From the NCBI RefSeq assembly GCF_932294415.1, contig NC_065542.1, forward strand, positions 49,206,942 through 49,270,941: a stretch of DNA of 64,000 nt. Reading direction: 5' to 3'. The notes below the pieces were generated by a model. It was not told the DNA's origin. It ran no database searches and worked only from the letters and a program-made list of their open reading frames with translations. Below are positions 7,312 to 53,899 of this stretch, one piece after another (the first letter of the stretch is position 1; each line of letters starts with the position of its first letter). A program made the position numbers and the translations under genes. The stretch is from Quercus robur. Its lineage: Eukaryota > Streptophyta > Magnoliopsida > Fagales > Fagaceae.

Positions 7312-7944
7312 TGTGGGGCCTAATAATTTATGGGCCGGGCCCACTTACTCATGGGGAGTCCAAAGGGCCAAACCAAAAAAGGCTACGGCCCAAGCTCAAT
7401 AACATAAAGCCCAAAATGGCCCAGAGATGTTGCCGAGAACAGTTCAGTCCTCGGCAGACCCAAAATTCCACCGAGAAGAAGGGCAAAAACGGTATAGGAA
7501 CAAGCCTGAAAGAAAATCCAAAATATCTAGGAAAAGCTGCCCTTCCCATGCAAGGCTCTGACCTAACAGAGCCGTATTCTTCAGCTTTATCAACCATCCC
7601 CAACGACTTTGGGTTTGGATTGACGGGACAAGTATCAGTCTTGGAAAGGTCGACCCTACACGTGGACGAAGGAAAGCGAACGCAGGCTAGTATACAAGAA
7701 AAGTAAATAATCTGGATAAAGGAGGGGAAAAAATGGCCAAGAAAGACGAAGGCCTCCCATCCCACCTCCAAGAAAAGACTCCAAGGGCGAAAACACCCTA
7801 ACCATGCATGAACACCATAAAGAACCCACCGCCGGGTATCCAAGGCCTAGCCTTTCAAACCCACTCTCTACAAATGATATTGTCTGGGCCCTTTCACGTG
7901 CGAGCTCAACACTGTTGTGGTTCGTTGCGTATTGTGTCCTTACA
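7312..7944 (+). repeat. 5' LTR
   Basis: Left long terminal repeat of the LARD-like element, TG...CA. The long open frames on both of its strands recur in the 3' LTR and are not treated as genes. Confidence 0.9.
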
Positions 7945-8173: not shown

Positions 8174-8905
8174 TAAGAAAATACAAGTTTTGGACAGAAC
8201 CAAGGCCTTGCATGGTCCTCGGACCCAAGCCTCTGGGGAAACCAACTACTTACAAAGAAAATACAAGTTTTGGACAGAACCAAGGCCTTGCATGGTCCTC
8301 GGACCCAAGCCTCTGGGGAAACCAACTACTTACAAAGAAAATACAAGTTTTAGACAGAACCAAGGCCTTGCATGGTCCTCGGACCCAAGCCTCTGGGGAA
8401 ACCAACTACTTACAAAGAAAATACAAGTTTGGACAGAACCAAGGCCTTGCATGGTCCTCGGACCCAAGCCTTTGGGAAAACCAACTACTTACAAAGAAAA
8501 TACAAGTTTTGGACAGAACCAAGGCCTTGCATGGTCCTCGGACCCAAGCCTCTGGGGAAACCAACTACTTACAAAGAAAATACAAGTTTTGGACAGAACC
8601 AAGGCCTTGCATGATCCTCGGACCCAAGCCTTTGGGGAAACCAACTACTTACAAAGAAAATACAAGTTTTGGACAGAACCAAGGCCTTGCATGGTCCTCG
8701 GACTCAAGCCTCTGGGGAAACCAACTACTTACAAAGAAAATGCAAGTTTTTGACAGAACCAAGGCCTTGCATGGTCCTCGGACTCAAGCCTCTGGGGAAA
8801 CCAACTACTTACAAAAAAAATATAAGTTTTGGACAGAACCAAGGCCTTGCATGGTCCTTGGACCCAAGCCTCTGGGGAAACCAACTACTTACAAGGAAAA
8901 ACTAC
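8174..8905 (+). repeat. 80-bp tandem array, about 9 copies
   Basis: A unit of 80 bp (one copy 79) runs through the 5' part of the LTR element interior. It carries the landmarks CAAGTTTTGGACAGAACC, CATGGTCCTCGGACCC and GGGGAAACCAACTACTTAC. Copies are nearly identical. Because 80 is not a multiple of 3, the unit is read in all frames in turn and gives long artificial open frames. Confidence 0.93.
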
Positions 8906-10477: not shown

Positions 10478-10760
10478 CTATGGTCCTCGGACTCAAGCCT
10501 CTGGGGAAACCAACTACTTACAAAGAAAATACAAGTTTTGGACAGAACCAAGGCCTTGCATGGTCCTCGGACCCAAACCTCTGGGGAAACCAACTACTTA
10601 CAAAGAAAATACAAGTTTTGGACAGAACCAAGGCCTTGCATGGTCCTCGGACCCAAGCCTCTGGGGAAACCAACTACTTACAAAGAAAATACAAGTTTTG
10701 GACAGAACCAAGGCGTTGCGAAGTCCTCGGACTCAAGCCTATGGGGAAGCCGACTACTCG
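10478..10760 (+). repeat. Second block of the 80-bp array, about 3.5 copies
   Basis: The same unit as at 8174-8905 reappears 1.6 kb further on inside the same LTR element, starting within the unit at TGGTCCTCGGACTC. The last copy is diverged. Confidence 0.9.
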
Positions 10761-12299: not shown

Positions 12300-12932
12300 T
12301 GTGGGGCCTAATAATTTATGGGCCGGGCCCACTTACTCATGGGGAGTCCAAAGGGCCAAACCAAAAAAGGCTACGGCCCAAGCTCAATAACATAAAGCCC
12401 AAAATGGCCCAGAGATGTTGCCGAGGACAGTTCAGTCCTCGGCAGACCCAAAATTCCACCGAGAAGAAGGGCAAAAATGGTATAGGAACAAGCCTAAAAG
12501 AAAATCCAAAATATCTAGGAAAAGCTGCCCTTCCCATGCAAGGCTGTGACCTAACAGAGCCGTATTCTTCAGCTTTATCAACCATCCCCAACGACTTTGG
12601 GTTTGGATTAACGGGACAAGTATCAGTCTTGGAAAGGTCGACCCTACACGTGGACGAAGGAAAGCGAACGCAGGCTAGTATAAAAGAAAAGTAAGTAATC
12701 TGGATAAAGGGGGGGGGGAAATGGCCAAGAAAGGAGAAGGCCTCCCATCCCACCTCCAAGAAAAGACTCCAGGGGCGAAAACACCCTAACCATGCATGAA
12801 CACCATAAAGAACCCACCGCCGGGTATCCAAGGCCTAGCCTTTCAAACCCACTCTCTACAAATGATATTGTCTGGGCCCTTTCACGTGCGAGCTCAACAC
12901 TGTTGTGGTTCGTTGCGTATTGTGTCCTTACA
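12300..12932 (+). repeat. 3' LTR
   Basis: Right long terminal repeat, 633 bp, about 98% like the left one. It is followed by the target duplication GTCCC. Confidence 0.9.
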
Positions 12933-14691: not shown

Positions 14692-16149
14692 AGAAGAAGA
14701 ACTGATTTTTCTTTTATATGGCTATCAAGCTCTCTAAAGTCTATGCTAGCTGGTCCACCATAAGTCCTATTACTGTTCTCTTCATTCGAAAAAATGATGA
14801 ATCCTGCTAAAGGGAATACATCATTGCTTCTTCTCTCCCTTCTTCTTATTTGCCCAATCTGCACTTCCCTTGACACCATAACACCAGACCAACCCCTCAA
14901 GGATGGTCAACTTCTACTCTCAAACCAGAAAACCTTTGCACTTGGGTTTTTCAGCCCCGGTAGTACCAGTCGTCGCTATGATGGAATTTGGTATAACCAA
15001 GTCACCGAACGAACCGTTGTGTGGGTTGCAAATAGAGACGCTCCTCTCAATGATTACTCCGGAGTCCTCTCCATCAACGGTAAGGGAAACCTTGTACTCC
15101 ACACCCAAAACCAAACCACTCCTATTTGGTCCACCAATGTTTCTTTTTCTGTCTCATCCACAAATAATTCTATGGCTAAGCTCTTAGATATAGGAAATCG
15201 TGTTTTGGATCAACAAGACAGCCAACGTGTTACACATACATGGCAAAGTTTTGATTATCCCACCAATACTCTGCTTCCGCTTATGAAACTTGGGCTGGAC
15301 CGGCGGACTGGGTTGAATCGGTTCCTAACATCTTGGAAGTCCAAAGATGACCCGAGAACTGGCAACCATTCATTTCGAATGGTTCCAACTGGGTACCCTC
15401 AGGTGATGTTATACATAGGTCAGACTTTATTATGGCGTATGGGATTTTGGAATGGCGTAACATGGAGCGGTGTACCCAAAATCGCATCACCGTACTTCAG
15501 AGTTAGCTTTGTGAATGATCAAGATGAAAGCACCTTTATTTACAATATTATTCCAAATTTACCCACCAAAGTTATTGTTAAAATGGTGGTGGATGAATCA
15601 GGAATTGTGAAACAATCCTTATGGCAGGAGACTACATGGGTCGACTATTGGTCCGCCCCACAAGGGTCGTGCGATAAGTATTTGAATTGCGGTCCAAATA
15701 GTTATTGTGACCCACACAATAATATGGTCATTTTTGAGTGCAAGTGCTTTCTTGGATTTGAACCCAAGTCATCTCGTGATTGCATGAGGGAAAAGTAAGG
15801 AGTGTCCATGTGCAACGACGGAGAAGGGTTCGTGAATTTGGCACATATGCAGGTGCCGGATACTTCAATAGCACATGTGGACATGAGTTTGAGTATGAAA
15901 GAGTGTGAGCAAAAGTGTTTGAGGAATTGTTCTTGTATGGCTTATGCAAGTGCAAATGTGAGTGAGGGAGGGATTGGTTGCTTGACATGGCATGGGGACT
16001 TGGTGGACACAAGAACATCTCTTGAAGGAGGACAAGATTTATACATACGTGTGGATGCGGTTGTATTAGGTACCCTTAATTAATTTTTTCTTTAAAAATT
16101 TGGTAAAAATTTTTATGAAAATACACAGTGACTTTTCTCCCTACATTTG

Positions 16150-27730: not shown

Positions 27731-28657
27731 GTGTTCAAGGAGATGACTTGGAAAAAGTTGCTGAATCCAAGTAGAACTGTCTTTGACGAAATTATAAGGG
27801 AATTCTTTTCAAACGCCATTGTGGAAGGAGATCGCATTAACTGTTGGGTGCAGCAAAAGGAATTCTTTATCACAAGGGATTCCATTCAAGAGTTCTTGGA
27901 AATTCGTCCACCATCTCAACAAATCTCCATCCAATATAATGACAGATTGGATTCTATTGAACCAATGGTTAGTCTCCTCGGTGGTACTCTCAAGAAGAAA
28001 AATTCAATGAACACCATCCCTTTCAATCCGGAGATGAGGACATTGGCCTATATCATGATTCACAAACTCTACCCGGTGATAAATTTGACCACACTGGCAG
28101 CACCAAGAACTACATTTCTTTATGATATCTTCACACATAAGGAGATTGACATCTGCGGTCACATCTTCTACCTCTTTAGAAAAGCCATCTCCAAGAGGAC
28201 TTTGAGAACTGTAATGCCATTCCCTAGTTTCATCATGGTTCTCATTGCAAAGACGAAACTAAAATTTCTGAGTGGTCTCACTGTGGTACGAAGAGACTCT
28301 CCTATTGGTGCTCCAACAATGTCCCAAAGCAAAGCTCATATCACCGAACCAAAAACCGACATGTCTCAAATCCCAAGGGACAATATTGAGGAAGAAGGTG
28401 GGGATACTGAAGAAGAAATTGACAGAGTCACCTCAGCACCAGAGAATTCTGCTCAACCATCCTCCCAAGCACAAGCACGAGGATCCGATCGTCTTGATCG
28501 CCACCTTGCAAGGGTAGAGCAAATGTATGGCATGCTTGAATCCCATGTACAGCACACCGTGGATCAGTTTGCTTACATCCAAGGCCAAAACATTGCATTA
28601 TCATCGCAGATTGAAGATATGACGATGGCACAAGGATCTGATTCAGAGTCTGACTAG
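27731..28657 (+). mobile_element. Envelope-like region of the SIRE-type fossil
   Basis: An open stretch of about 308 codons resembling the extra 3' protein found in SIRE-type plant Copia elements (landmarks EIDICGHIFYLF, RTLAYIMIHKLYP, SGLTVV). The end is acidic and Gln/Ser-rich. It belongs to the truncated element and is not a host gene. Confidence 0.6.
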
Positions 28658-39039: not shown

Positions 39040-39049
39040 GAGAGAGCAT

Positions 39050-39215
39050 GAACACCCTTGCTAAATAAACTCAGTACGGCAACAATTTTGTTAGTTGGCC
39101 GGATTCGGAACAATTTGTAATAATAGCATCTCGAGTTTCTGAAACTCGAGATCTAATTAGAACTCGAGTTTTAGAAACTCGAGTTCGTTGTTTTCATTCT
39201 ACCTTACGTGGACAA
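39050..39215 (+). repeat. Inner MULE left TIR with palindromes
   Basis: Inverted match (diverged) to 53240-53409. It holds two palindromes: 39128-39152 (arm ATCTCGAGTTTC, 1-base loop) and 39160-39186 (arm GAACTCGAGTTT, 3-base loop). A third lies just inside at 39238-39262 (arm AAATCGAGTCT). Confidence 0.75.
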
Positions 39216-39417
39216 AATTTCCACGTGGAGCCACGGGAAATCGAGTCTATAAGACTCGATTTCTTGCAACCAGAAACACAAAAACCAGAAGCACTTTCAA
39301 ACGGCACATTTGAAAGTGACAGAACCTTTCAACCTCACTCACTCTAAGACTCCGCCCTCTCTCACTCTCAAACTCACTCTAAAACTCCGCCCTCTCTCAC
39401 TCTCAAACTCAGTCTGA

Positions 39418-39515
39418 AGCCGTTCGTAGCGCCGTTCGTAGCCCGCCGCTCGTAGCCCGCCGTTCGTAGCGCCGTTCGTAGCCCGCCGCTCGTAGCCCGC
39501 CGTTCGTCTGCCGTT
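39418..39515. repeat. 40-bp GC-rich tandem repeat
   Basis: Just over two copies built from CCGTTCGTAGC and CCGCTCGTAGCCCG sub-units, in an otherwise AT-rich leader-like region of the inner MULE. Confidence 0.75.
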
Positions 39516-39519
39516 CGTG

Positions 39520-41440
39520 CTCTCTCTTTTCAGGTTCTGGGTTCTCTTCTTCTCATTTTTCTTTATGCAATTTTTTGATCTGTGTGATGGGTATTGTAAA
39601 TTTGAGTTGTTTTCTGTTTTGGGTTCTTGAAATTTTGGGTTTTTGTAGCTCAGTGTTAGTGGTAGCACATCTCATGAAAGAAATAGAGATTCACTGCACC
39701 TAATAATCTTTTCTCACTTTCTCCTCTAATTTCTTCTTCTGTTTCTTTTACTTTAATGTCTTGGTATTTCAGGATTTTTTGTCCCTAAAAAATCTGGATT
39801 GGGTTATATAAAATACCAATAAAGCTATTTGATTTCCATGGACATTCAGTGTTTCCCCCTTAAGTAACTGTCCGGTGTTAGGCAGATGATTTAAAAAGCC
39901 AAGGCTTGGCATGTATATTTAGAGAAATTTATTTTTCTTTTTTGGTGAAATATACAGGTGATACCTTGAATCATATTTGTTATTGAGGGCTTATTCTGAA
40001 CTAATTGTTGATGTCTTTTTGCTGGGTCCATTTGTTGTAATTGTGTTAGAAGGCTTGTCCGTTCTGTTTATGGGAACAGGTTATTGAAGAAATTCTAAAT
40101 TATTTAAGTAGTTTGTTCTGAGATTCTTCAAAATTTGGTGCTTATTAACTCTTTCCGTAGTGGTATATCTAATGACTCATTAAAGCATATCTTCCCATTT
40201 TCTAATGATAGCAACATCTTTTAAAGAAATAGAAACCTGGTTATGCAGTGATTCATATATGCATTTTTTTATGCTTGTTTCTTTTTACTTTATTGGGTAT
40301 GCTATTTCCAATTTTGGTTCATCTATTGTGATAGTTTATAAAGTTTTTTGTGTGTTTGTTTATGTTATTAAATATGGGGTAATTGAAAAATGTTTAATTG
40401 GAAATGCTAAAAAGTTTTGGAACATTATGGGTGAGTTATTGTAGGACTAATGTTGTATAGGTTTTTTCACCTTTTAGTTGCTCATAGCTTGTTGAGAGAA
40501 TAAGAAGGGTTAAAATTTTGGGAATTGGAATGAAAAATTTTGATGTTTAGCTTAGCTGAAATCATCACCCTTAGATGGAGCAGGCCCATACATCAAAAAG
40601 AGTTGCTTACTAATAAGAAAAATGTTTTCCATTTTGACCAATGGGTTGTCTGGAATTCCTATAGTTTTTTACTGACTCTGTGCATTTGGTAATTCGTTGA
40701 GCAGGATATATGTGAATTAGGGACCATTTTTGCTCCTGCTTGTATCGGTCATAGTTGGTATTTGTTGGTCGGTTTAAATGAATGAGAAAAAGTCATTATT
40801 AGATGGTATCTGATCATATGAAAGTTCCAACACACCATTTTAGGATATAACGATCAAATCACTTAATGTGCTCATTGACCATGAGATTTCCATAGTGCAA
40901 AGTGGGTTCTTGTTAGCTTTGATTATTACTGTTGTGTTGTTGGTTTGCTTAGATTATAAGTTGTGTGATGGCTTTGCGTTGTGTACTTGTATAGTCTTGT
41001 CCGAAGGTACTCTCTCTTTCTTCTGAGTGCTTTCTCGTTTTTGCTTCTTAGACTCCTCTCTCTCTCTCTCTCCAATTTTAGATTTATGAATTTCATGATT
41101 TGACCTAGGGTTTGGATCTTTTTGGGTTTTTTTGATTTTTTTATTATTTTTTTTATTAATTGTGTTTTTTTTAAAATGATTGAATTTGATGTAATTGGTT
41201 TTGCATCATGTTTGAATTTGTTGGTTTGTTCTACAAGTTGATGATTTAGTGGTTTTGCATGATTTGCTATAGCTATTGTCTAAGTTTAGGTTTTGGGTTT
41301 CTGGGTTCTTTTCTCTCGGCCAAACTGTTGAACATATTAGAACATAATAAACTAACCAAAAGTAAAAGTAAGTTCACAAACTCAAATTCTCGGGAAATTA
41401 CATGAGGTTACCCTCTGTTGGGGCGAATTGTAAGTGGTTC
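39520..41440. other. Inner MULE left arm, no gene seen
   Basis: Leader- or intron-like T-rich sequence. Open frames are short and Phe/Leu-rich. No protein is recognised. Confidence 0.5.
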
Positions 41441-41457
41441 ACATACCCTCTGTTTAA

Positions 41458-41596
41458 GCCTTACAGTGACATTTTAAAGCCCTATAGTGGTGTTTTCCTG
41501 CAAATTTTTTTTTATAAGTATCAGGTTTAGGGAGCCATATAGTGGCGTTTTTAAGTCCTATAGTGACGTTTTAAAGCCCTATAGCAGCGTTTTTCT
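41458..41596 (+). repeat. About 22-bp motif repeated five times
   Basis: Variants of CCCTATAGTGRCGTTTTAAAG start at about 41458, 41480, 41532, 41554 and 41575, three of the four gaps being about 22 bp. They could be subterminal protein-binding repeats. Confidence 0.6.
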
Positions 41597-41703
41597 GTAA
41601 TTTATGGAAATTGAGTCTTTAAAACTCGATTTTTACGTCAATTTTTTCTCACTTTAAACCCATCCTCTTATAAATCGAGACTTAAAAACTCGACTTTTAT
41701 ATT

Positions 41704-41790
41704 GGAACTCGAGTGGAGGAACACTCGAGATGCTAGTTTTCAACATTGTTTTGAAACGTGACAACTAACTAAATTTTTTAATATTTATTG
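41704..41790. repeat. Internal copy of the MULE right terminus
   Basis: ACTCGAGATGCTAGTTTTC followed by ACATTGTTTTGAAACGTG and 'aactaact' parallels the right end of the inner MULE at 53322-53370, in the same orientation. With the left TIR it would bound a 2.7-kb sub-element. It is preceded by degenerate CTCGAG palindromes at about 41610-41730. Confidence 0.6.
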
Positions 41791-41863
41791 TTATTTAGAA
41801 AAAAAATTCTGTTCTTATCTAGTTTGTATGCACTTGTAATGTTTAACTGTCATTTGAATCTTC

Positions 41864-41894
<31 letters not shown>

Positions 41895-41985
41895 GAAGGT
41901 GATGGAATGAAAATATATGAACTCTTATCAAACATTGGCACAGAGAAATTGGGGTTTTCATAACCTTTTTAATTGTCTTTGCAAT

Positions 41986-44900
41986 ATGGAGCCTCAGATC
42001 GATGAGGAGCTACAGTGCTTGCACCCCGGTCCGCTACAGGATTCAGTGTTGACGCGACAACCATATCACCGATCAGAGGCCATTTGGAATGGCGAGGTGA
42101 AATTTCTAGTTCTAACAACCGCTTTAATTTTTACGTTGACTTTGACTTTTAGTTAGCAAGTTCTTTCAAAGTTGTATTTCTAGTTCTAACAACCGCAAAA
42201 ATTTTTATTGAATTTATAGGACCCGGGCCCACTTGTGTGCCGTGGTCGCACTAAGGAGATGGCAAACGTTCAGATGGAAGATAATCGGGTGATTGACATT
42301 ATCAAATTGCTAAGGTTGGAAGGATTGTTTAGAGCCCCTTCCAAAGAGATCGATAATTGCCTAATATCGGCCTTAGTTGAGCGATGGCGGCCGGAGACTC
42401 ATACGTTTCATCTTCCACATGGTGAGATGACAATCACCCTACAAGATGTGGAGGTAATTTTCGGACTTCCTATAGACGGTGAGGTCTTGGTTGGACTGAC
42501 TGCTGTGGAGGATGGGACTTGGAGGGATGTGTGCGGGGAGTTGCTTGGATTTACTCCGCCGAATGACAATAAAACTTTGGTGGGCCAAAGAATTCTCATC
42601 AGCCGACTTGTTGAGGCCATTGCAGCACCACTGCCTGAGGACGCAACAGAGATTCAGATACACCGGTATGCCCGGTGCTATATTTTAGCGCTAGTAGGGG
42701 ATAAACTTTTCATGGACAAGTCAGGAGATAGGGTGCATCTGATGTTCTTGGAGTTTATGCGCAACCTTCGTGATCTGCGGCAGTATAGTTGGGGTAGTGG
42801 TTGCTTGGCCTGGTTGTACAGGGAGTTGTGTCGAGCAAGTGAGAAAGGCGCATCGCAGATTGGTGGGGCGTGCACCTTGGTCCAGTATTGGGCATGGGCA
42901 AGGTTGCCATTCTTGTGCCCGAGGATAGAGCCCCCACCTGGATGTGATTATGGCCCATGGCCATATGCTCCACTTGCATTTAAGTAAGTGTTTTCCTAAT
43001 ATTTAATTTGTTATGCAATGTACTCTTCTTAATAACTAAATTGTATTATCGTTCTTATGTTATTTGCTCATAATTGTAGGTGGGTGCGGGTGCGAAGCCC
43101 GAAGAGTAGGCCAGGTGGCACGGCCTTGATCCGCTATCGCGAGCAATTAGTGACAATGCAGCCAGACCAGGTAATAACATTCAAAAATTCGGTTTGGTTA
43201 TAATAATTTCCCTTAAGAATATGATTGCTTCATCCTTTAACATATCTTTTGTTAAAATTGTGGTTTTTCCTTTTATCTATGTATTCTCCCTTCTTTCACC
43301 TTTTAAGATGCTATGATAATTGTTTTTTGTTTCTATTGTAGATTGTGTGGCAGCCATATGAGGCAGACTTCGGCCACCTTCCTGAGTTCTGCGTTGCAGG
43401 GAGGGATACGTGGACAGCCAGGGTGCCGCTTCTGTGTTTTTGCATAGTAGAGAGACACTACCCGGACCGTGTCCTTCGACAGTTTGGGTTGGCGCAGCAG
43501 CAGCCTGACGATGTTTTCTACGAAGATAGACTGCATAAAATTGACTTACGTGGGAAGGTGGAAAAGAATTGGAGGGAGGAGCATGGACCGTATATCATTT
43601 CATGGGAAATGAGACGACAACAACTTTGTCATGCACCTCCTCAGATTGGTGAGATGCCCCGCGATCATGCCTATTACGTCTGGTACCGTCCGGTCACTCG
43701 AAAGTATGTCGACCGCAACAGCGCTAAATTAGATATAATGGTAATGTGTTCTAATTAGATTTTATTGCCTATTTCGTTTTACTTGAGTACATGTATGAAC
43801 GTAGAATCAGTTTCTATGAATTATAAAAACATATCTGATTAAAGAGTTTCTGTTACATATAGTACTCTAATAAAACTGTTAGTTTCTAGTTGAGTATTTG
43901 AGTAGATTAGTAAGTACTATATTGCCTATTTCATTAATTTATACATAACTGTCTCAAATATGATTGTACTGGTTCTTTCTCCGTTTCAGATTCAAAGCCA
44001 TTTAGCGCTGTTGGCGATGCTTCCTGAAGGCAGCGAAGCTCACAACCATGTTCGGCGTGTCCTAAATAATGTGGTTGGCCTTGGTCGTGATCCTGTAGCA
44101 AATGAGGAGGCAGACAATGGCCATGAGACTGAACCAACAGCTACTGAAATCCCAAGCACAAGCGCAGCACCCATAAGTACACGGACCCGTGCTCAGCGTG
44201 CTATTGCAAGCCCAAGCACAAGCGCAGCTAGGGGCCGTGGTCGGCCTGCTACAGCAAGCCCAAGTACAAGTGCAACCAGGGGTCGTGGTATGCCTGCTAC
44301 AGCAAGCCCAAGCACAAGTGCAGCTAGGGGCCGTGGTCGGCGTACAACAACCCCTCGGGTTGTAACTAGTCCTGAGATGCCTGCACCCATCCCGCACTCA
44401 TCTCCTCAGCCTGAGGTCCCTCCACACATCCCAGATGCATCTCTTCAGCCCGAGGTCCGTTCACCCAGCCCACCTTCGCAGCCCAATTTTGATCTCGGTA
44501 TTGATTACAATGTGACCCCTCCTATACTCCCCGAGACACCCTCTTACCCACCTACCAGCTCTACTGCACCCACTCCTGGCCTCTACTTAGAGCATCATTA
44601 CCCACCTACCGCATCCTCATCTGACCCTCTAGGACCTCCGGTTGGGATTGACACTGTACAGCCACATACTGATGTACCAAACGAGCAACCCCCTCATCAG
44701 CCCTCACCTCCACGAGGTAGACCACAGCGCACTAGAAGAGCACCCACTTGTGGGACAGGTGGACACAAAATAGGACACCGAGGTAGCTCTATGGTATGAT
44801 AACGTTAATTAGAATTCAAATGCATATATTTTGTAGTTCACTTTCTTCTAATGATAACATTAATTAGAATCTTGATTGCGGAACTTCTAATGGAATTTGC

Positions 44901-44995
44901 AGCATGATGATGAGCCTAAGGATGATGCCCCGCAGCCGCCTCCCTCGCCCAAACATTACACAAGGGTTAAAAAACGCAAAATTGGCGAACCTTGA
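41986..44995 (+). CDS. Plant mobile domain (PMD) protein carried by the MULE
   Basis: Six exons with GT/AG borders and no break: 41986-42096, 42220-42983, 43080-43170, 43342-43740, 43990-44793 and 44903-44995, giving about 753 residues. The mobile domain of the MAIN/MAIL1 and 'PP7 long form' families spans roughly residues 15-460. Landmarks are HPGPLQDSVL, HRSEAIW, GEMTITLQDVEVIFGLP, WAWARLPFL, WQPYEADFGHLP and DHAYYVWYRP. The tail is Pro/Ser-rich with three 16-residue repeats (44206-44349, ASPSTSAARGRGRPAT) bearing AT-hook-like GRGRP cores. An in-frame ATG at 41917 is an alternative start; 41986 is chosen because family N-termini begin close to the HPGPL motif. PMD proteins occur as host silencing or development factors and inside transposons; here the location says transposon. 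The biochemical role is unknown. Confidence 0.85.
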
Positions 44996-45650
44996 GTAAG
45001 TGCTAAAGTCATAATATTTTAGCATTTTTCTTCTTCTTCTTCTATTATTCTTCTCATAGTTTCTTAATTTTTTGCCTCATAATTGTTTATTATCAATTTA
45101 TCACTAGAGAGTAGAGAGCTTGGGTTGTGTTGTGTTGGAGCAGAATTTGAAAGATTGATTCATGTCAAATTTCTTATCTTAAAAAGTTAATATTTCTAAT
45201 GTAGTGATTCATCAATTAGTTAAATGTCAATGTTTTGCCAAAGATCCTTGTAATAGAAACTTCATTTTTTTTTATTGAAATTATTGCTAATTTCGTGTTT
45301 GTGAGGCATGATTAGTTGTATGTTGAAGGCTTAGGCAGATTGGAAAAAAGAATGATGTAGGTCATTTTACTTATTGCATCTTTTTGTACCATTGCCTGGT
45401 TTTCTCAACTGTGCTTAAAAAAAAATATTATAAAGGACCTATATAAACAAGATGATGCATATGTATGAATGAGACTTTCCACTTGGTACTGTTTGGGAAA
45501 TTTCGGTTCAAATATGAATTAGTTTCATGGACAATCACCCCCCCACCCCACCCCCAGGCTGGGTGTCCCCCCTAAATTGCACCACCTTTAAGTTTTGCTG
45601 CACGGATACCAAATTTAATGATTGAGAGATTCTTCATTTCCATGATGCAG
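44996..45650. other. Between PMD and the lysyl-tRNA synthetase fragment
   Basis: Non-coding as far as I can see. A C-rich run lies at about 45537-45555. This is probably the PMD 3' region plus captured intron sequence. Confidence 0.45.
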
Positions 45651-45937
45651 CAAGTCAGATTTGAATGAGGAAGAATTTTCTGGGTTCCATTCAACTGTGA
45701 AGCATGGTGATATTGTTGGTGTCAAAGGGTTTCCACGTTTGTGATGTTACTACAATTGGGTAGTTACTAACACCTTTTGAATTTTATATATATATATATA
45801 TATATAGCTGCTCCTTATTGTATCAACAACGCTATTTAGATTTGATGTTGAATATGGAGGTTCGACAAATTTTTGAGACAAGAACTCGGATCATTAAATA
45901 TATTCTGCACGTTCTTGAAAATCTTGATTTCTTGGAG
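45651..45937 (+). pseudogene. Captured lysyl-tRNA synthetase fragment
   Basis: Two exon blocks. The first (45651 to about 45737, after a CAG acceptor) encodes SDLNEEEFSGFHSTVKHGD and IVGVKGFP, matching the anticodon-binding OB-fold region of plant lysyl-tRNA synthetase. The second (about 45822-45937, ending at a GT donor) encodes RYLDLMLNMEVRQIF, TRTRIIKYI and DFLE, the start of the catalytic domain. Sequence that should lie between them (GKTKRGELSIFP region) is missing and the first block runs into a stop. A TA repeat lies in the gap. It is a non-functional piece of a host gene inside the inner MULE. Confidence 0.78.
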
Positions 45938-45994
45938 GTTAGTTGAGTAAACTTAGGAAATGAAGGAAAGTGTATGATTTTACATTTTGAGCGC

Positions 45995-46033
<39 letters not shown>

Positions 46034-46477
46034 TTCATCTTTCATGTGTTTTATCTATGTTTGGTGGTTGAGAAAACAAAGGAAAGTAATAGGAACATAC
46101 AGACAAAGAAAAGTGTAGAATTGTACATTTTGAGTGTTTTATTTCTTTACTTTAAATTAGTTCATTTTTTTGTGTTTTTCTCTGTTAGTTGTTTAGAAAA
46201 TAAAGGGAAGCGTGCTTTTTGAGTGCTTTGATATTTTAGTTTTACTGTGGAAAAGATCTTTGAAAGAATGCCAGTAGTTGCACCCTAGGTATATATGAAT
46301 CTAGGTTTTGCTAGCTAGGTCCCAATTTTTATAAATATATATAAACCCATGATTCGCAGATTCAGTATCTGAATTTTTGTTTTTTGGTTTTCTGTAACAC
46401 TTGTAGTCCCTGATTACTGTAAGATTTAGCTTAATTTATTTTTGGATGAATAGATTTAGCTTAATTTTGTTAGTTGG
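45938..46477. other. Spacer inside the inner MULE
   Basis: AT-rich, with a TA repeat at about 46000-46030. No gene seen. Confidence 0.5.
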
Positions 46478-47591
46478 ATGATGCACAGTACTGATTTTTC
46501 ATTGATTGAATCTATGTCAAAGGCAAAGGGTACAGAAAAAGAGGAGCTTGCTGAGACAATGGATAAGCTAAATATTGAGGGATCATCATCTGGCCAGGCT
46601 GGGACTTCGTCAACCAACTTCAAGAGAAAACCAGTTATCATCATTGTTGTAGGGATGGCAGGTGATTAAATTAACCCTAATCGGTTTTGTTTAAAAGTAT
46701 TATTGGTTGTCTTTTCGTTGATTTATATGGGTTTGGATTTTTGGGAACTTTGTGGTATGTTTACTGTTTGGAGATAAAGACTGAAAGATGTTATACGGAT
46801 TTTCTTATGTTGGATGTTGCCTCTTGTGCTGGCATTCAACAAGACTGATGTGGCTCAACATCAATTTGCCTTGGAGGTTTGTTTTTACTTGACCCTTCAA
46901 GTACATAATTTTCTGAAAATGCTATATTTGACTCTTCCTTTTGCCTCTTTTAAACCACGTATTTGGTATGATGGTCTAAATCTGATTCTGCAGCTGTTTT
47001 CTCACCCTTTGCTTGGGACACTAATTTTTTCTCCATTCCCTTTATCGTCTAGTTAACTTGCATATATATACTAGCAGATTTTGTTTTGTATTTATATCCT
47101 TGTCTTGAATGCTGATGTGCATGCAGTGGATGGATGACTTTGAGGCCTTTCACGCAGCAGTAAGTTCAGACAGCTCATACACATCAACTCTAACTCAGAG
47201 CCTTGCCCTTGTGCTGGATGAGTTCTACAAGAATTTACGGTCAGTTGGTGTGTCTGCTGTTTCTGGTGCTGGAATTTACGGTCAAGGCCATTGAAGCAAG
47301 TGCCGAGGCTGATCTTGACAAGAGATGGGCAGAGAAGCAACGTTTGGAGGAAGATCGCAGGAAGGAGAACTTCGATAAATTGAGGAAGGATATGGAGAAA
47401 TCTGGGGGAGAAACTGTTGTCTTCAGCACTGGTCTGAAGGACAAAGGAGATAGGAGTAAAACCATGATGGATGAGGAAGATGAAGAAATAGAAGATGATG
47501 ATGATGATGATTATGAGATCCCTATGATGATGAAGATGCTATAGATGAGGATGAGGATGAAGATGAAGAAGTTTCCAAATTCTCCTTTTAG
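46478..47591 (+). pseudogene. GPN1: Captured GPN1/QQT2 GTPase gene, internally deleted
   Basis: The blocks encode the two ends of GPN-loop GTPase 1, an RNA polymerase II assembly factor. 46478-46661: KEELAETMDKLNIEGSSSG to KPVIIIVVGMAG, stopping right before the P-loop GKT. About 46817-46876: LPLVLAFNKTDVAQHQFALE, with the G4 motif NKTD. 47127-47591: [40 protein letters not shown], then after a frame change near 47275 [20 protein letters not shown] and an acidic tail ending VSKFSF. All exons for the P-loop, GPN motif and G3 are gone. It cannot make a GTPase and looks like a captured fragment. Confidence 0.85.
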
Positions 47592-48032
47592 TACAGCTAC
47601 AATGCTAACAAAATTTTCTTGAAGCAAAACTTTGTATAGAATTTTCACTAGTGACTAATGTACTAAACACTGATTTAACGGCATATAGTTTTGCATAACG
47701 TGTGATTTTAGACTTAAATTAGTGTTTTAATAATGTGTAGAGACTTTGCCTCTAGTAATTTCCAAATGTAATCCAAAGGCTAAGATTTTAGACATTTGCA
47801 AAAATGGTGGTTGAGAGAGTGAACATTTCATTGTTGCTAATCAAAATTATGTCAATGTTGATAGTCATATGTTCTCTTACATTTATATATATATATATTT
47901 TTTTTTTCCTTCTTCATAGATGGTTTTTATTAGTTTTCTTAACAAAATATTGTGCTTTGCATTGCAAGAATGTTTTAGGAATTTTGCACCAAAATGTGTC
48001 ATGCTCTGTGGATCATCTTTCTTGTATATAAA
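47592..48032. other. Spacer between GPN1 fragment and hairpin array
   Basis: Probably captured 3' UTR of GPN1. No gene seen. Confidence 0.5.
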
Positions 48033-48391
48033 TGGAATTTTTTTTCCCCAAATCCCCTATTTTTGTAGGCTCTCGGCCTAAACAGGGGATTTGGGGAAAA
48101 AAAATTTCCCCAGCTGGAACTCGAGTCTTTAAGACTCGAGTTCCACTGGGGAAATTTTTTTCCCCAAATCCCCTGTTTTTGTAGGCTCTCGGCCTAAACA
48201 GGGGATTGGGGGAAAACAAAATTTCCCCAGCTGGAACTCGAGTCTTCAAGACTCGAGTTCCACTGGGGAAATTTTTTTTCCCCCAATCCCCTGTTTTTGA
48301 AGGCTCTCGGCCTAAACAGGGGATTTGGGGGAAAAAAATTCCCCAGCTGGAACTCGAGTCTTAAAGACTCGAGTTCCAGCTGGGGAAATTC
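48033..48391. repeat. Array of three long nested hairpins, about 117-bp period
   Basis: Units at 48080-48178, 48196-48296 and 48314-48391, preceded by a half unit at 48033-48060. Each of the first two is an inverted repeat with arms of about 48-50 bp. An arm runs AAACAGGGGATTTGGGG, A-run, TTTCCCCAG, then GGAACTCGAGTCTT at the centre with a single unpaired base (T, C, A in the three units). Units are joined by TAGGCTCTCGGCC. The array sits between the 3' ends of the convergent GPN1 fragment and the transposase gene. Confidence 0.92.
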
Positions 48392-48694
48392 TAAACATGC
48401 CCAACCACGCTTAATTTGCAGTTCTAACCATACTACTCAAATCACAATCTTCATAAAGGTACATTGGATTAAGAATTACAAGTACATTCAACAAAAGCCA
48501 AAAAGTTCACATAGCCAATACAACGTAGTCACTTTTCCTAACATCGTCGGTCCACATGACAAAAACGTCATCCATGGAAGCATGCCTGAAAAACATAGAG
48601 TAATCACGTTAGGAGACAATATACTAAACAATAAGTAAACATGGAATGAATAACAATTATTTAACCGATGCATAACTTTTTGCCATCTACCTAC
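48392..48694 (-). other. Transposase 3' flank
   Basis: Probable 3' UTR of the minus-strand transposase. No further gene seen. Confidence 0.45.
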
Positions 48695-51490
48695 CTAGTC
48701 TGGAACATGACCGCTGGTGGAAGCGCCACGGGACTGCGGACATTTTCTGCGGTTATGCCCGGAAACATGACACAGTCCACATGTCTGCTTGGGTTGACTC
48801 TCTATGAAATCTGCATCCTCCCTCCGCCATCCCGGTTCTCGATTCTTATTCCTTACCCCATCCATCTCATTCCTTATTCTCGACTTCACTGGTCGACCTT
48901 TAGCCCGCAACAATGCTGGATTAGGCAACCACTTTGGCCCTATGGGATCCCGCCACAACGACTGCGACTTTGGAATCACAAATGCATGCTCATAAGTGTT
49001 AAGGGCATTGTTCAAGCCATAACATGGGTGAATATATGTGGTCGAATCAATATGTAAATAGTCACATACTCTAATTGCATGTGAACAAGGGATCCCTATG
49101 TTTTGCCATTTCCCACAACTGCATTTTTTTTCCTGTAACCGAACTTCATAACTGTGGTTTCCCCCTCCTGCGCTACATGTGTTGAGTTGGGTAACTACTT
49201 GAAATATCAGCTCTTCATTGCTAAATGGCTTGAGATAATGTTTCTCGGATTTACACTTATTTGCATCCCACGTACGATTGGCATATTCACTCCATTTCTT
49301 ACCCTCTGAGAACTCAAAATGGTATTCTTTACGCCGGTCATGGAAATATTGAACAACTTTGTTCCAAGTGAACTCAACTAATGCGGCAATAGGAAGACCT
49401 CGTGCACCTTTCAGTACACCATTGAAACACTCTGATATATTGGTTGTCATTGCCCCAAAACGTCTCCCACCATCATGTGACTGGGTCCACATATCCACAG
49501 ACTCGCCCATTAGGTATGTGTATGGAAGATAATCTTGATTCTTTTCCTTGTCATCCTTCCCCGTCACCTTCTTCTTATTCCTAATGGCCTCAATTTCCAC
49601 CTGCTTAATGGACTCCATTATGGCATCAAATTTCACCACCTGAGTAGCATATCCCGCTTTCAACGCCGTTGACTTTAGAGTTGAGTTCTGAAAATGGGTG
49701 TTGAAGTTGCTAACAACATGTCGAAGGCAATATCTATGAAATACTGGTGTACTTCCATCTTCCCTTCTAGGCCAGTTTGCAATGGCGTTTTTGATACCGA
49801 GATGTCGGTCAGAAATTATGCAAATTCCTTCCTTAGGTATCACGTGGCCAATCGTATCTCGGAGGCACTGTAAAAACCACCTCCAACTGGACCCTGACTC
49901 ACAATCCACAACAGCAAACGCGAGAGGGAATACCTTGTTGTTAGCGTCAGTTGCCATTGCGACCAACAACTTTCCCTGATATTTACCATACAGATGGGTC
50001 CCATCAATACTGATAACCGGCTTGCAGTATTTGAATCCTGATATGCATGGACCGAAAGACCAAAACACATAATGCAACAATACGGCGTCATCTTCATCGG
50101 TGGATGTGATACGATAGAACACTTGGGTAGTCGGGTCCTGATCAATATATGCCATTAGCAATTTTTGCAATCTTTGGTAAGACTCTTCCCAATTCCCAAA
50201 CATCATCGCAATCGCCTTTTGTTTCGCATCCCATACCTTGTAGTAAGAAGGCTTCTGCCCACTATATTTCGTCTCTATCATGGATCTGAGATGCTTAACT
50301 GGGGTAGTGTGATCCTCACATAACTTCTTATGGATGTCTGATGCAATAAAATTACAACTCATCATTCTACCATCATTTCGCACCCCAGTCGCTATACACG
50401 TGTGAGGACCCACATACACGGTGACCATCCATAGTTTGTGGAGATCGGGCTTCATAACTGCGCAGACATACCACTTGCATGACTCATGCACGCATTTTGC
50501 ACAAAGTTTTTTCGTCGTCGACCTAATGATCGTAAAATGTTTGTTTTCCTTGAGGGCACAAATTGTTAATACGTACTTCACCTCCTCTTTATTGGCAAAA
50601 GCCAACCCTTTGCACAAATTCATCCCCTCTCTCCAAGTAGACACAAATGGCATATCAATATGTGAAGGATCAACCATATGTTCCCAAGTATTTGCAGAGA
50701 ATGACAATGCAGGAGGTGCGTAGGCAGGGATTGTATTCGTAATGTTTTGGACACTAATGACATTGTCTACATAAGGTTCACTACCATCCAATGTCTGATC
50801 GTCAACAATGTCCCTCTCAAAGTCCCCAAGGTCTCTGCCAATCGTGTCTTCATACTCATCTCTATCCACAAAATCTTCACCATTAATGGCAATATTCTCA
50901 TCAACATAGTCGTCATCATCATCGTCATCATCATTGTTAATGGCAGTAGTCTCATCAACATAGTCGTCATCATCATCATCATCATCATCATCACCATCAA
51001 CATGAACATCACCATCGGCATGAACATAATCATCCTCTACATGTGTAGAATACTCATATTGAGCATCTGGAACCATAACCTGTAAGCTTGTAGTCGTTTG
51101 TTGGATATCCTCTTCCCAAACTGCACGCGGCTCCAATTGTATGTACAACTCAATGTTAGTTACTTCACCTATTCTTTCCAACTTGTCAAACATGATCTTT
51201 ACATGTTTGTCTGTTTCTATCACCATATACTTGTAATTAATCCGATGCTTCAAGATTTCGTTTGGCATACGATAAGTAATTTGTATGTTGTGTATAGCAG
51301 GATTCTCACACAACTCTTCCATGATAATCTTCTTCAATTCGTCAAGGGTCTTCAACCTACGATCAATTTGGGTATAATAGGTCTTTATACCCGGCCCTTC
51401 AAATGGCAATCCCTTGTTCGCATTGACATTCTTAAGCGGACCACCGTGGTATAGGATTATATCAATTTCAGGCATTGTGAACCTGTTCAA
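48695..51490 (-). CDS. MuDR-type MULE transposase, open and complete
   Basis: 931 residues in one uninterrupted exon. The N-terminal region is PB1-like (DIILYHGGPLK). An Asp-rich linker covers about residues 155-240. The MuDR DNA-binding region lies at about 275-385 (VKYVLTICALKENKHF, CKWYVCAVMK, HTC). The MULE DDE domain has candidate catalytic residues Asp496 (SIDGTHLYGKYQG), Asp561 (IISDRHLGIKNA) and Glu687 (NISECFNGVLK). A SWIM finger follows at about 790-804 (CSCGKWQNIGIPCSHA, CxCx9CxH). A C-terminal zinc knuckle is at about 904-917 (CGLCHVSGHNRRKC). It would cut and join the element's TIRs in the nucleus. A second Met lies five residues in (51475) and could also be the start. No broken motif is seen. 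Confidence 0.93.
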   Translation of the reverse strand: MNRFTMPEIDIILYHGGPLKNVNANKGLPFEGPGIKTYYTQIDRRLKTLDELKKIIMEELCENPAIHNIQITYRMPNEILKHRINYKYMVIETDKHVKIMFDKLERIGEVTNIELYIQLEPRAVWEEDIQQTTTSLQVMVPDAQYEYSTHVEDDYVHADGDVHVDGDDDDDDDDDDYVDETTAINNDDDDDDDDYVDENIAINGEDFVDRDEYEDTIGRDLGDFERDIVDDQTLDGSEPYVDNVISVQNITNTIPAYAPPALSFSANTWEHMVDPSHIDMPFVSTWREGMNLCKGLAFANKEEVKYVLTICALKENKHFTIIRSTTKKLCAKCVHESCKWYVCAVMKPDLHKLWMVTVYVGPHTCIATGVRNDGRMMSCNFIASDIHKKLCEDHTTPVKHLRSMIETKYSGQKPSYYKVWDAKQKAIAMMFGNWEESYQRLQKLLMAYIDQDPTTQVFYRITSTDEDDAVLLHYVFWSFGPCISGFKYCKPVISIDGTHLYGKYQGKLLVAMATDANNKVFPLAFAVVDCESGSSWRWFLQCLRDTIGHVIPKEGICIISDRHLGIKNAIANWPRREDGSTPVFHRYCLRHVVSNFNTHFQNSTLKSTALKAGYATQVVKFDAIMESIKQVEIEAIRNKKKVTGKDDKEKNQDYLPYTYLMGESVDMWTQSHDGGRRFGAMTTNISECFNGVLKGARGLPIAALVEFTWNKVVQYFHDRRKEYHFEFSEGKKWSEYANRTWDANKCKSEKHYLKPFSNEELIFQVVTQLNTCSAGGGNHSYEVRLQEKKCSCGKWQNIGIPCSHAIRVCDYLHIDSTTYIHPCYGLNNALNTYEHAFVIPKSQSLWRDPIGPKWLPNPALLRAKGRPVKSRIRNEMDGVRNKNREPGWRREDADFIESQPKQTCGLCHVSGHNRRKCPQSRGASTSGHVPD

Positions 51491-51808
51491 GTCAAGTTAC
51501 TATGTTAGTTAGTTGATAACAAGAACACAATTTAATCAACTAACACACACAGACAATTAAAACTAACGAACCATCCAGTTATTTCACCAGTACATGCCCA
51601 CAGGTCCAGACAACAGCAATAACCACCCAACCTTAGTTGCAAAACATTGGAGTCGCCTATTGATACTCAACAAACTAATTAAGGTAGATCTTATGTAAAC
51701 ATATGGTTCTGATCCAGACTTTAGAACAGAAATATAAGTTACCACACTCAAAACCTTAGACCATCGCTTGGCAAGTAATATACCATAATACAAGTTAAAA
51801 ACATGGTA

Positions 51809-52055
51809 TGAGCATTACTCTAAACTGTTTATGATTAGTCATAAGGCAGAAAACAAATGATATCTAAACTGGATGAGCATTACTCTAAGGCAAAAAACAA
51901 TTCATGATTACTCTAAACTGTTTATGAGCATTACTCTAAACTGTTTATGAGCATTACTCTAAACAAATGAGCATTACTCTAAACTGTTTATGAGCAGAAA
52001 ACAAATGAGCATTACTCTAAACTGTTTATGATTACTCTAAACTGTTCATGATAAC
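51809..52055. repeat. 23-bp minisatellite upstream of the transposase
   Basis: Repeated GAGCATTACTCTAAACTGTT units, about eight, some interrupted by GCAGAAAACAAATGATAT. It lies 320-570 bp before the transposase ATG, in its probable promoter or leader region. Confidence 0.85.
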
Positions 52056-52800
52056 AATTCCAATGTTAAGATTTTCATCAAAGGCAGAAAACAAATGATA
52101 TCACCTAATTCCTTTACCATAGTCCGTACAATTCTAAATAAAACTTATATTTCTTAGCTTTCAAACAAGCCTTAGTTTTCCACTAACCTTATCAACATAA
52201 AAAGATCAAATAATTCTCAAATGTCATTTCCAAATACCAAATCGTTTCCAAAATGACCAATTCCTTATACAGTCATGTATTGTAGGTAACCACATTTTAA
52301 GATATTATGATACCCATTCATTCCATTCAATCACTACCCATTTCATACCCAAAATAATGATGAATAAAGTCAAAAATAATTGTAACACACAAAATGGGCA
52401 AATAAATACTCAAAAAATTAACACTAACAAAACAAACTTCTATAACACACAATATAAGTAAATTAACTAAGTTATGTCAACTATGTACAAAATAATTAGT
52501 CAAACTCTTTAACCCACACCCATAGACAACTAATACCCAACTACAATGACAATCAAATTATGCAAACCCTTACCTGAGATATCAATTTGTTGAGAGGGAA
52601 GAGCAGTGAGAGAGGCAGTGTGATGAGTGAGAGTGAGAGGCAATGTGGTGTAGGAGTTATGGGTGAGTGAGAGTTAGTGAGGGTAAGAGTTAGTGAGGCT
52701 GAGAGACTCAGTGAGGATACTCTGTTTTTGGGTGAGAAGGCTGTGTAGAATGTTAGAAAGTGTGTTATACGGGCTGAGTGTTCAGAGTGTTCTGTTTTAA
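52056..52800 (-). other. Transposase upstream region
   Basis: AT-rich non-coding DNA. 52590-52760 is rich in GTGAGAG motifs (CTCTCAC on the minus strand), as in plant 5' leaders. Confidence 0.4.
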
Positions 52801-52816
52801 TAATTTTCCCCAGTAG

Positions 52817-53335
52817 AACTCGAGTCTATAAGACTCGAGTTACTTGCATTTTTACCCCACGAACGTAAAGTGCTGTAGCTGTAGTGGGTAATTTAATTTT
52901 TAGGATCTCGAGTCTTTAAGACTCGAGATCCTTGTATTTTTATTTAATTTATTTAGTACACAAAATAAATTAAATAAATTTGGTTAAATAAAATTTGTTT
53001 AAAAACTCAAGGATCTCGAGTCTTCAAGACTCGAGATCCATGTATTTTTATTTAATAAATAAATTAAATAAAATTTGTTTAAAAATTCAAGGATCTCGAG
53101 TCTTTAAGACTCGATATCCTTGTATTTTTATTTAATTTATTTCATACACAAAATAAATTAAATAAAATTTGGTTAAATAAAAGTCGGAATAAAATTCAAG
53201 GATCTCGAGTCTCAAAGACTCGAGATCTAGGTGGCAACAGTGTCCACGTCAGTTGGAATAAAATAACGGAAAGCGAGTATTTGAAGGTCGAGTTTTTTAA
53301 GTGGATCTCGATTTTTTGAAACTCGAGATGCTATT
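52817..53335. repeat. Right subterminal palindrome cluster
   Basis: Five strong palindromes: 52817-52841 (arm AACTCGAGTCT), 52903-52931, 53011-53039, 53091-53119 (one mismatch) and 53201-53227. The middle three have arm GGATCTCGAGTCTT and a 1-base centre. A weak sixth lies at about 53304-53330. Four are embedded in repeats of about 80-108 bp with 'cttgtatttttatttaa' and 'aattaaataaa'. Confidence 0.9.
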
Positions 53336-53409
53336 TTCCAAAATTGTTTCAAACGTTGTCTAACTTACAAAATAGAAAGGCTGAAGGAGGTTATTTCGCT
53401 CAAAACCTC
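53240..53409 (-). repeat. Inner MULE right TIR
   Basis: Inverted partner of 39050-39215. On the minus strand it opens GAGGTTTTGAGCGAAATAAC and carries TAGCATCTCGAGTTTC. Confidence 0.75.
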
Positions 53410-53899
53410 GAGAGAGCATATTTGAAACCTTTTTTCTTAAAAGAAAAAAAGTTTGTGAGACGAAGGAATTGAAGGAGAGCTATGTGTTTCTTTATGGAGG
53501 TGATTTTTTTTTAGAACCGTTCGGAGGAGACTTGGCAATGAGAAAGATAGATCACTAGTAGAAGTATAGAACAAATCGATTCGATGCATACAAAAGACAG
53601 AACTCACCTCCTTGCGAAGTCCGATGTAGGAAGCGGTGATTTTAGGTATTTCCGATGAGAAAAAGGCTAGTATGTTCGGAACCGGAGATCCGGGCTAGTA
53701 GCTGTGCCGTGAAGAGAGAGCTTCATCAACTTCTCTACACCCGATTCTCTCCAACCTCAACCTTGCTCTCTGATCTGGGTCTAAAAAGCGCTCTCCGAGG
53801 CGTGGGGGTTTGGCTTCAAATGGTGAGTTGATGTTTTGGCTTCGATTCTACTGATGGGTCTGAGTTGGGTATGCTGGCAGCGGTGACGATGAGGTTGAA

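Follow-up and report, generated by a model that had tools for sequence, protein, structure and literature searches.

A two-gene Mutator-like element of Quercus robur carrying a plant mobile domain protein with a predicted VANC21-type fold

The plant mobile domain (PMD) is a domain of unknown function that has been described in host silencing factors, in Gypsy elements and in Mutator-like elements (MULEs). In this report, we describe a MULE in a 64,000-nucleotide stretch of Quercus robur DNA (contig NC_065542.1, positions 49,206,942 to 49,270,941; hereafter the window). The element occupies positions 39050-53409 (14,360 bp) and carries an open transposase gene and, convergent with it, a complete PMD gene. 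Structural models predict that the PMD protein has the fold of VANC21, the anti-silencing protein of the Arabidopsis element VANDAL21, and the non-coding DNA of the element holds an array of a palindromic motif.

PMD genes have been recorded next to MULE transposases before. An antisense PMD is reported in most of the MUDR group, often in MUDRAVI2, and PMD and/or DUF domains are reported in half of the VANDAL members (Dupeyron 2019, PMC6446971). The pairing, also in antisense, is already on record; the oak element adds one more example of this layout. Group 50 of MUDR in the same study has target-site duplications (TSDs) of 9-10 bp, terminal inverted repeats (TIRs) of 30-320 bp, a SWIM domain and a mostly antisense PMD, all of which the oak element has; this likeness is drawn from the listed features rather than from placement in a transposase tree. 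The available part of the description of group 50 mentions neither cargo, nor palindromes, nor a PMD fold.

A second arrangement is fusion. PMD-C domains fused to MULE transposases were reported in grasses and Amborella, and anti-silencing by a captured PMD was raised there as speculation (Ikeda 2017). When such a fusion is used as the query, 23 of the best 120 proteins listed join PMD and MULE transposase in one predicted protein; they come from nine genera, a wider range than that named in 2017. The transposase comes first in seven of the nine fusions scanned. Both parts are one predicted protein in these fusions, whereas in the oak element they are separate, convergent genes.

Other systems share single features with the oak element. 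In VANDAL21, VANC21 sites are dense in non-coding DNA and often lie in tandem repeats (Hosaka 2017). The oak element likewise combines a MULE with a second protein of the same predicted fold and with motif arrays in non-coding DNA, and its palindromes are arranged much as VANC21 sites are, but the motifs differ. Also, VANDALs carry vanB, and their TIRs are absent or short and degenerate (Dupeyron 2019, PMC6446971), whereas the oak TIRs are long. Maize MuDR holds two genes, mudrA and mudrB, in opposite orientation between its TIRs. An earlier sequence-only reading of this DNA had likened the oak element to MuDR, and the two facing genes between TIRs agree with that view; however, the second oak gene encodes a PMD, and it is by layout that it resembles mudrB. 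Abermu also has an opposite open reading frame (ORF), which is unlike MURB (Gao 2022). Finally, Pack-MULEs and KI (Ulp1) MULEs contain captured pieces of host genes, as the oak element does. Pack-MULEs lack a transposase (Dupeyron 2019, PMC6446971), whereas the oak pieces lie between the genes of an element whose transposase frame is open, and we therefore do not class it as a Pack-MULE. In the literature examined on the layout, we found no counterpart to a cargo site combined with a motif array of this kind, and a literature search returned no paper combining "plant mobile domain" and "Quercus".

Anatomy of the element

The features of the element are as follows.

39040..39049, plus strand: left 10-bp TSD, GAGAGAGCAT, in register with the TIR ends
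39050..39259, plus strand: left TIR (L), three palindrome sites; from TIR alignment and motif scan
41599..41809, minus strand: a third TIR-like end (M) inside the element, its inward side to the left, with two palindrome sites; from repeat and register alignment
41986..42096, plus strand: PMD exon 1 (ATG)
42220..42983, plus strand: PMD exon 2, PMD domain in its ORF (E 1.2e-51)
43080..43170, plus strand: PMD exon 3
43342..43740, plus strand: PMD exon 4
43990..44793, plus strand: PMD exon 5, encoding the low-complexity tail, which has tandem repeats and a GRPxR..CGTGGHK motif
44903..44995, plus strand: PMD exon 6, stop TGA
45646..45741, plus strand: probable lysyl-tRNA synthetase (LysRS) gene fragment, a weak match (best E 0.012)
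46460..46666, plus strand: open frame, probable N-terminal piece of a GPN1-type GTPase, without Pfam match
47109..47291, plus strand: captured fragment of GPN-loop GTPase 1 (E 7.8e-15)
47194..47541, plus strand: open frame, probable C-terminal GPN1 piece in another frame, without supporting Pfam match
48034..48390, no strand assigned: repeat, tandem and inverted, separating the convergent genes; contains three exact palindromes and folds into strong hairpins as RNA
48695..51475, minus strand: MULE transposase, 926 aa, single open frame; from ORF and Pfam domains
52799..53204, minus strand: sub-terminal repeats adjoining the right TIR, four palindrome sites
53205..53409, minus strand: right TIR (R), two palindrome sites; from TIR alignment and motif scan
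53410..53419, plus strand: right 10-bp TSD, GAGAGAGCAT

The flanking 10-mer is not unique. It has four copies within the window, the two extra ones on the minus strand (6546 and 25012) in CT-rich DNA, and we therefore dropped its rarity as an argument. The boundaries are convincing because the TIR ends share a register: from the 11th base inward at both ends they align with a score of 129.5 (maximum 36.5 in 300 shuffles) and 71% identity over 179 bp, the outermost ten bases matching poorly. Together, the flanking copies and the ends in register bear out the 14.4-kb element with a perfect 10-bp duplication that the sequence-only reading had delimited. TIRs, a duplication within the 8-11 bp range and a DDE transposase with MULE, DNA-binding and SWIM domains place the element in the MULE superfamily.

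The transposase matches the Pfam families MULE (9.8e-18), DBD_Tnp_Mut (4.2e-7) and SWIM (8.3e-7), all above cut-off. We take D491, D556 and E682 to be its catalytic triad and also assume a CCHC knuckle, in positions assigned by motif. The open frame and its domains agree with the earlier reading, but the protein has 926 residues from its ATG and not 931. Among the best 120 of 187 matches, relatives from Q. suber match at 79% over 90% and at 90% over 57%, and two relatives match at 60% across the full length.

Six exons, whose ends were chosen by eye, and five GT-AG introns make up the PMD gene, which encodes 753 aa. Its exon-2 ORF matches PMD (PF10536) with 176.4 bits, against a cut-off of 34.9. 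The best match to the protein is a Q. robur protein (P0001) of equal length, 99% identical over 753 residues with ten differences, which together with the exon model confirms the complete, intron-containing gene proposed earlier to face the transposase. The same match points to an oak of this kind as the host. Sequence scans of a viral contigs collection found no relatives of the transposase or of P0001. With both genes open, the element is a two-gene MULE that is potentially autonomous and may still be mobile.

Four features come in addition to those already proposed: the palindromes, the inverted-repeat array between the genes, the host-gene pieces at 45646-47541, and the third TIR-like end at 41809. 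The register of this M end is best against L at 41809, and against R, 41809 and 41811 are tied. The 2.76-kb, TIR-bounded left part (39050-41809) contains CT-rich repeats (39337-39518) and no recognised coding sequence; it may house the 5' leader of the PMD gene. It could also have been a separate unit that joined a larger element and then moved with it, as a third end in register with L would suggest. However, no matching duplication lies beside 41809, and the perfect duplication pairs the outer ends. We consider such a composite origin doubtful; it concerns how the element arose and can hold beside any reading of the PMD gene.

The palindrome array and the predicted fold

With up to three mismatches, TCGAGTCTNNNAGACTCGA has 14 sites in the window (9 exact; 0.07 expected), all of them in the non-coding DNA of the element. 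L holds three of them, M two and the stretch between the genes three; the remaining six are at the right end, in R (two) and in the adjoining repeats (four). The hexamer CTCGAG occurs 23 times in the window, against 3.17 expected; 22 of these are wholly inside the element, and one (53407) crosses its right edge. RNA of 48030-48400, which spans the repeat between the genes, folds at -275 kcal/mol (z -32). This repeat might terminate transcription of both genes or be a source of small RNAs.

The models predict for the element's PMD protein the fold of VANC21, which is the fold that characterizes VANC proteins. We therefore propose, as a serious possibility that falls short of probable, that PMD counters silencing in the manner of VANC, with the element's own palindromes as its target. 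The transposase would move the element by its TIRs; the protein encoded by the convergent gene would bind the copies of TCGAGTCTNNNAGACTCGA, both terminal and intergenic; and this binding would relieve silencing of the element and its relatives, as VANC does. Copies of the family take up host pieces in the stretch that separates the two genes, here from GPN1 and probably LysRS. An anti-silencing role had been suggested for this gene from the sequence; the modelled fold lends support to that suggestion, while the role itself remains conjectural.

Several observations weigh against this proposal. PMD and VANC21 are only 9-11% identical. A Foldseek search with the first, 753-aa PMD model did not list the VANC21 entry 9lnj, and with the second model the TM-scores were low (0.33 and 0.41; rmsd 12.7). 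Profile searches of the PDB with two PMD alignments and one single PMD protein did not find VANC21 and gave no direct sequence link. The VANC domain, DUF1985, has no match in P0001, and its printed matches in other PMDs (12.9-19.4 bits) fall below the Pfam cut-off of 35.1, so they do not identify the domain. DUF7745 (PF24924) is weakly matched by 5 of 42 PMD proteins, with a best E of 0.0031 versus 0.014 for DUF1985. The PMD domain is nearly neutral in charge (pI 6.9), and the palindrome may have no use beyond the transposase or the structure of the TIRs. Also, MAIN and MAIL1, which are PMD proteins of the host, have the opposite role of promoting silencing (Ikeda 2017, Nicolau 2020), and a shared fold is not a shared function.

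DUF7745 is itself another domain of unknown function, and it may belong to the same fold family as PMD. An unpublished crystal structure of VANC21 is mentioned in a meeting report. We found no PMD-VANC link in the literature, although one may stand in the paper behind 9lnj or in Babu 2006. AT-hook-like GRP motifs in the PMD tail were considered as a mechanism and rejected: they are present in all six window-subclade proteins listed and in none of seven from the other element-type subclade.

Captured pieces and the history of the PMD

The GPN1 and LysRS pieces lie between PMD and transposase, in the same sense as PMD, and both are fragments. All 12 PDB matches of the LysRS piece with E up to 1 are LysRS. 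The GPN-loop GTPase 1 fragment matches ATP_bind_1 with an E of 3.7e-5, under the Pfam cut-off; the open frames at 46460..46666 and 47194..47541 are presumably the N-terminal and C-terminal pieces of the same gene.

Similar attachments appear in related proteins. A search with the PMD protein gave 930 matches, and among the best 120, other Pfam domains occur in 22 of 68 proteins from Quercus, Lithocarpus and Castanea versus 2 of 52 from Fagus and others (Fisher p 6e-5); these 22 are not independent captures, since two of them (P0024 and P0025) are isoforms of one gene and each of HisRS, MGS, copine and AAA turns up twice. The host domain follows the PMD part in all 21 that were scanned (P0024 was left out), and P0100 has one before it as well. 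Three of the proteins (P0052, P0059 and P0084) match PMD by BLAST only, without a Pfam PMD match, and in P0040 and P0100 that match is under cut-off. In 14 of the 22, the PMD match stops either at a junction between PMD exons or, in five cases, within the last eight residues; seven junction ends are at residue 723 (five of these after three residues were added by eye) and two at residue 322. Many attached domains are partial, such as positions 93-159 of 277 in glutamate synthase and 108-182 of 266 in NAP, and P0047 and P0059 have domains resembling two host genes. Some fusions may be annotation errors involving neighbours, and the common sense orientation of cargo is partly ascertainment, because a gene finder can fuse only same-strand pieces. 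P0024 and P0025 are named as isoforms X6 and X4 of one Q. robur gene; in both, similarity to PMD stops at the exon 3 junction and NOG1 sequence comes next, and such named isoforms rest on transcripts. Separately, a weak match to Bet v 1 (E 0.039) in 1 of 42 MULE transposases, by eye Lithocarpus P0129, may mark a further captured gene.

We built a PMD tree of 91 rows by a quick method from 94 selected proteins, omitting four PMD-MULE fusions with too little PMD, including the Lithocarpus fusion P0266. The window protein and 46 of 47 Fagaceae PMDs form one branch (support 99), and the remaining Fagus protein falls elsewhere. This branch contains none of the tree's 19 PMD-transposase fusions, 16 of which group with Arabidopsis PMD-PP7 proteins that we take to be MAIL3. 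Because the fusions lie outside it, the Fagaceae PMDs seem to stem from a separate acquisition or to form a lineage of their own, in a tree where long branches meet and deep placements are weak. In the Fagaceae branch, the window protein belongs to a group of 38 rows, whose sister group of eight rows includes the oak MAIN-like proteins. Both genes also stand together in Lithocarpus, where a diverged PMD (SO802_015458) and a diverged transposase (SO802_015460) come from contigs of equal length and have locus tags two apart; this locus accounts for one of six Lithocarpus transposases among the matches listed.

Constraint was judged on proteins rather than as dN/dS. The PMD domain is less divergent than the rest of the protein in nine of nine comparisons (p < 0.05 in six), a result to which the low-complexity tail may contribute. 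For the transposase, the domain is below the rest in four of seven comparisons, equal in one and above in two (p < 0.05 in three). A site test is better suited. Site variation in the window subclade tracks that of distant PMDs beyond residue type, an agreement reached by 1 of 2000 shuffles with 8 rows and by 0 of 2000 with 19 rows; the test takes the subclade to be element-borne and draws on database proteins, among which intact genes are over-represented. These patterns support continued selection on the PMD protein.

Elsewhere in the window, 633-bp direct repeats at 7312-7944 and 12300-12932, about 5 kb apart and 98% identical, are perhaps long terminal repeats; they enclose 80-bp tandem repeats at 8175-8900 and 10480-10758. 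An open frame at 14764-15795 with B_lectin and S-locus glycoprotein domains is perhaps the start of a receptor-kinase-type gene, and another with Pfam Transposase_32 at 27731-28654 is a remnant of another transposon.

Readings of the PMD gene and their meaning

That the PMD gene is useful to the element, as had been suggested, gains support from its completeness beside decayed captures, from the large Fagaceae clade and from the reduced variation at conserved sites. The use could be indirect: an element PMD that mimics MAIN or MAIL1 could compete for PP7L and loosen silencing without binding element DNA. The sister relation of element-type PMDs to the oak MAIN-like proteins and the related CGTG stretch in which both end fit such interference, and Ikeda 2017 thought an anti-silencing use of captured PMD tempting. 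However, this account leaves unexplained the palindrome array and the match to the DNA-bound VANC21 structure, and the oak MAIN-like proteins are taken for products of host genes from their names. We think it unlikely.

It is improbable, in our judgment, that PMD is instead a transposition helper with no part in silencing, as MURB is thought to be for MuDR insertion. The convergent two-gene layout is the same, new insertions are described as requiring MURB (Gao 2022), and L, M and the right end, the expected places of action of a transposition complex, together hold 11 of the 14 palindromes. Yet the other three sites are intergenic and distant from the ends; Gypsy elements, whose movement does not involve TIRs, carry PMD too; and the likeness to MURB is one of layout. 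Least credible is that PMD is passive cargo, a younger capture that is still intact, for although MULEs do capture host genes and this one holds decayed captures, the PMD gene is complete with all splice sites beside fragments, its Fagaceae clade persists while attached domains differ, its protein is constrained, and the diverged Lithocarpus pair keeps both genes.

The predicted fold link is the main gain, and it makes an old guess about a family of unknown function testable. If PMD shares its fold with a DNA-bound anti-silencing protein, then its function becomes a question of binding, with a defined protein and a candidate site. A shared fold would also connect host silencing and transposon anti-silencing. 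It is quite possible, though somewhat less likely than not, that PMD and VANC (DUF1985) form one ancient family of sequence-specific DNA-binding proteins, by which MULEs escape silencing at their own motif arrays and which MAIN and MAIL1 put to the opposite use. The oak element, with its open PMD, open transposase and 14 palindromic sites, offers a natural test of this idea outside the VANDALs. For the Fagaceae, it is probable that many genes annotated as "serine/threonine-protein phosphatase 7 long form homolog" belong to this mobile element and that some have been joined to pieces of unrelated host genes.

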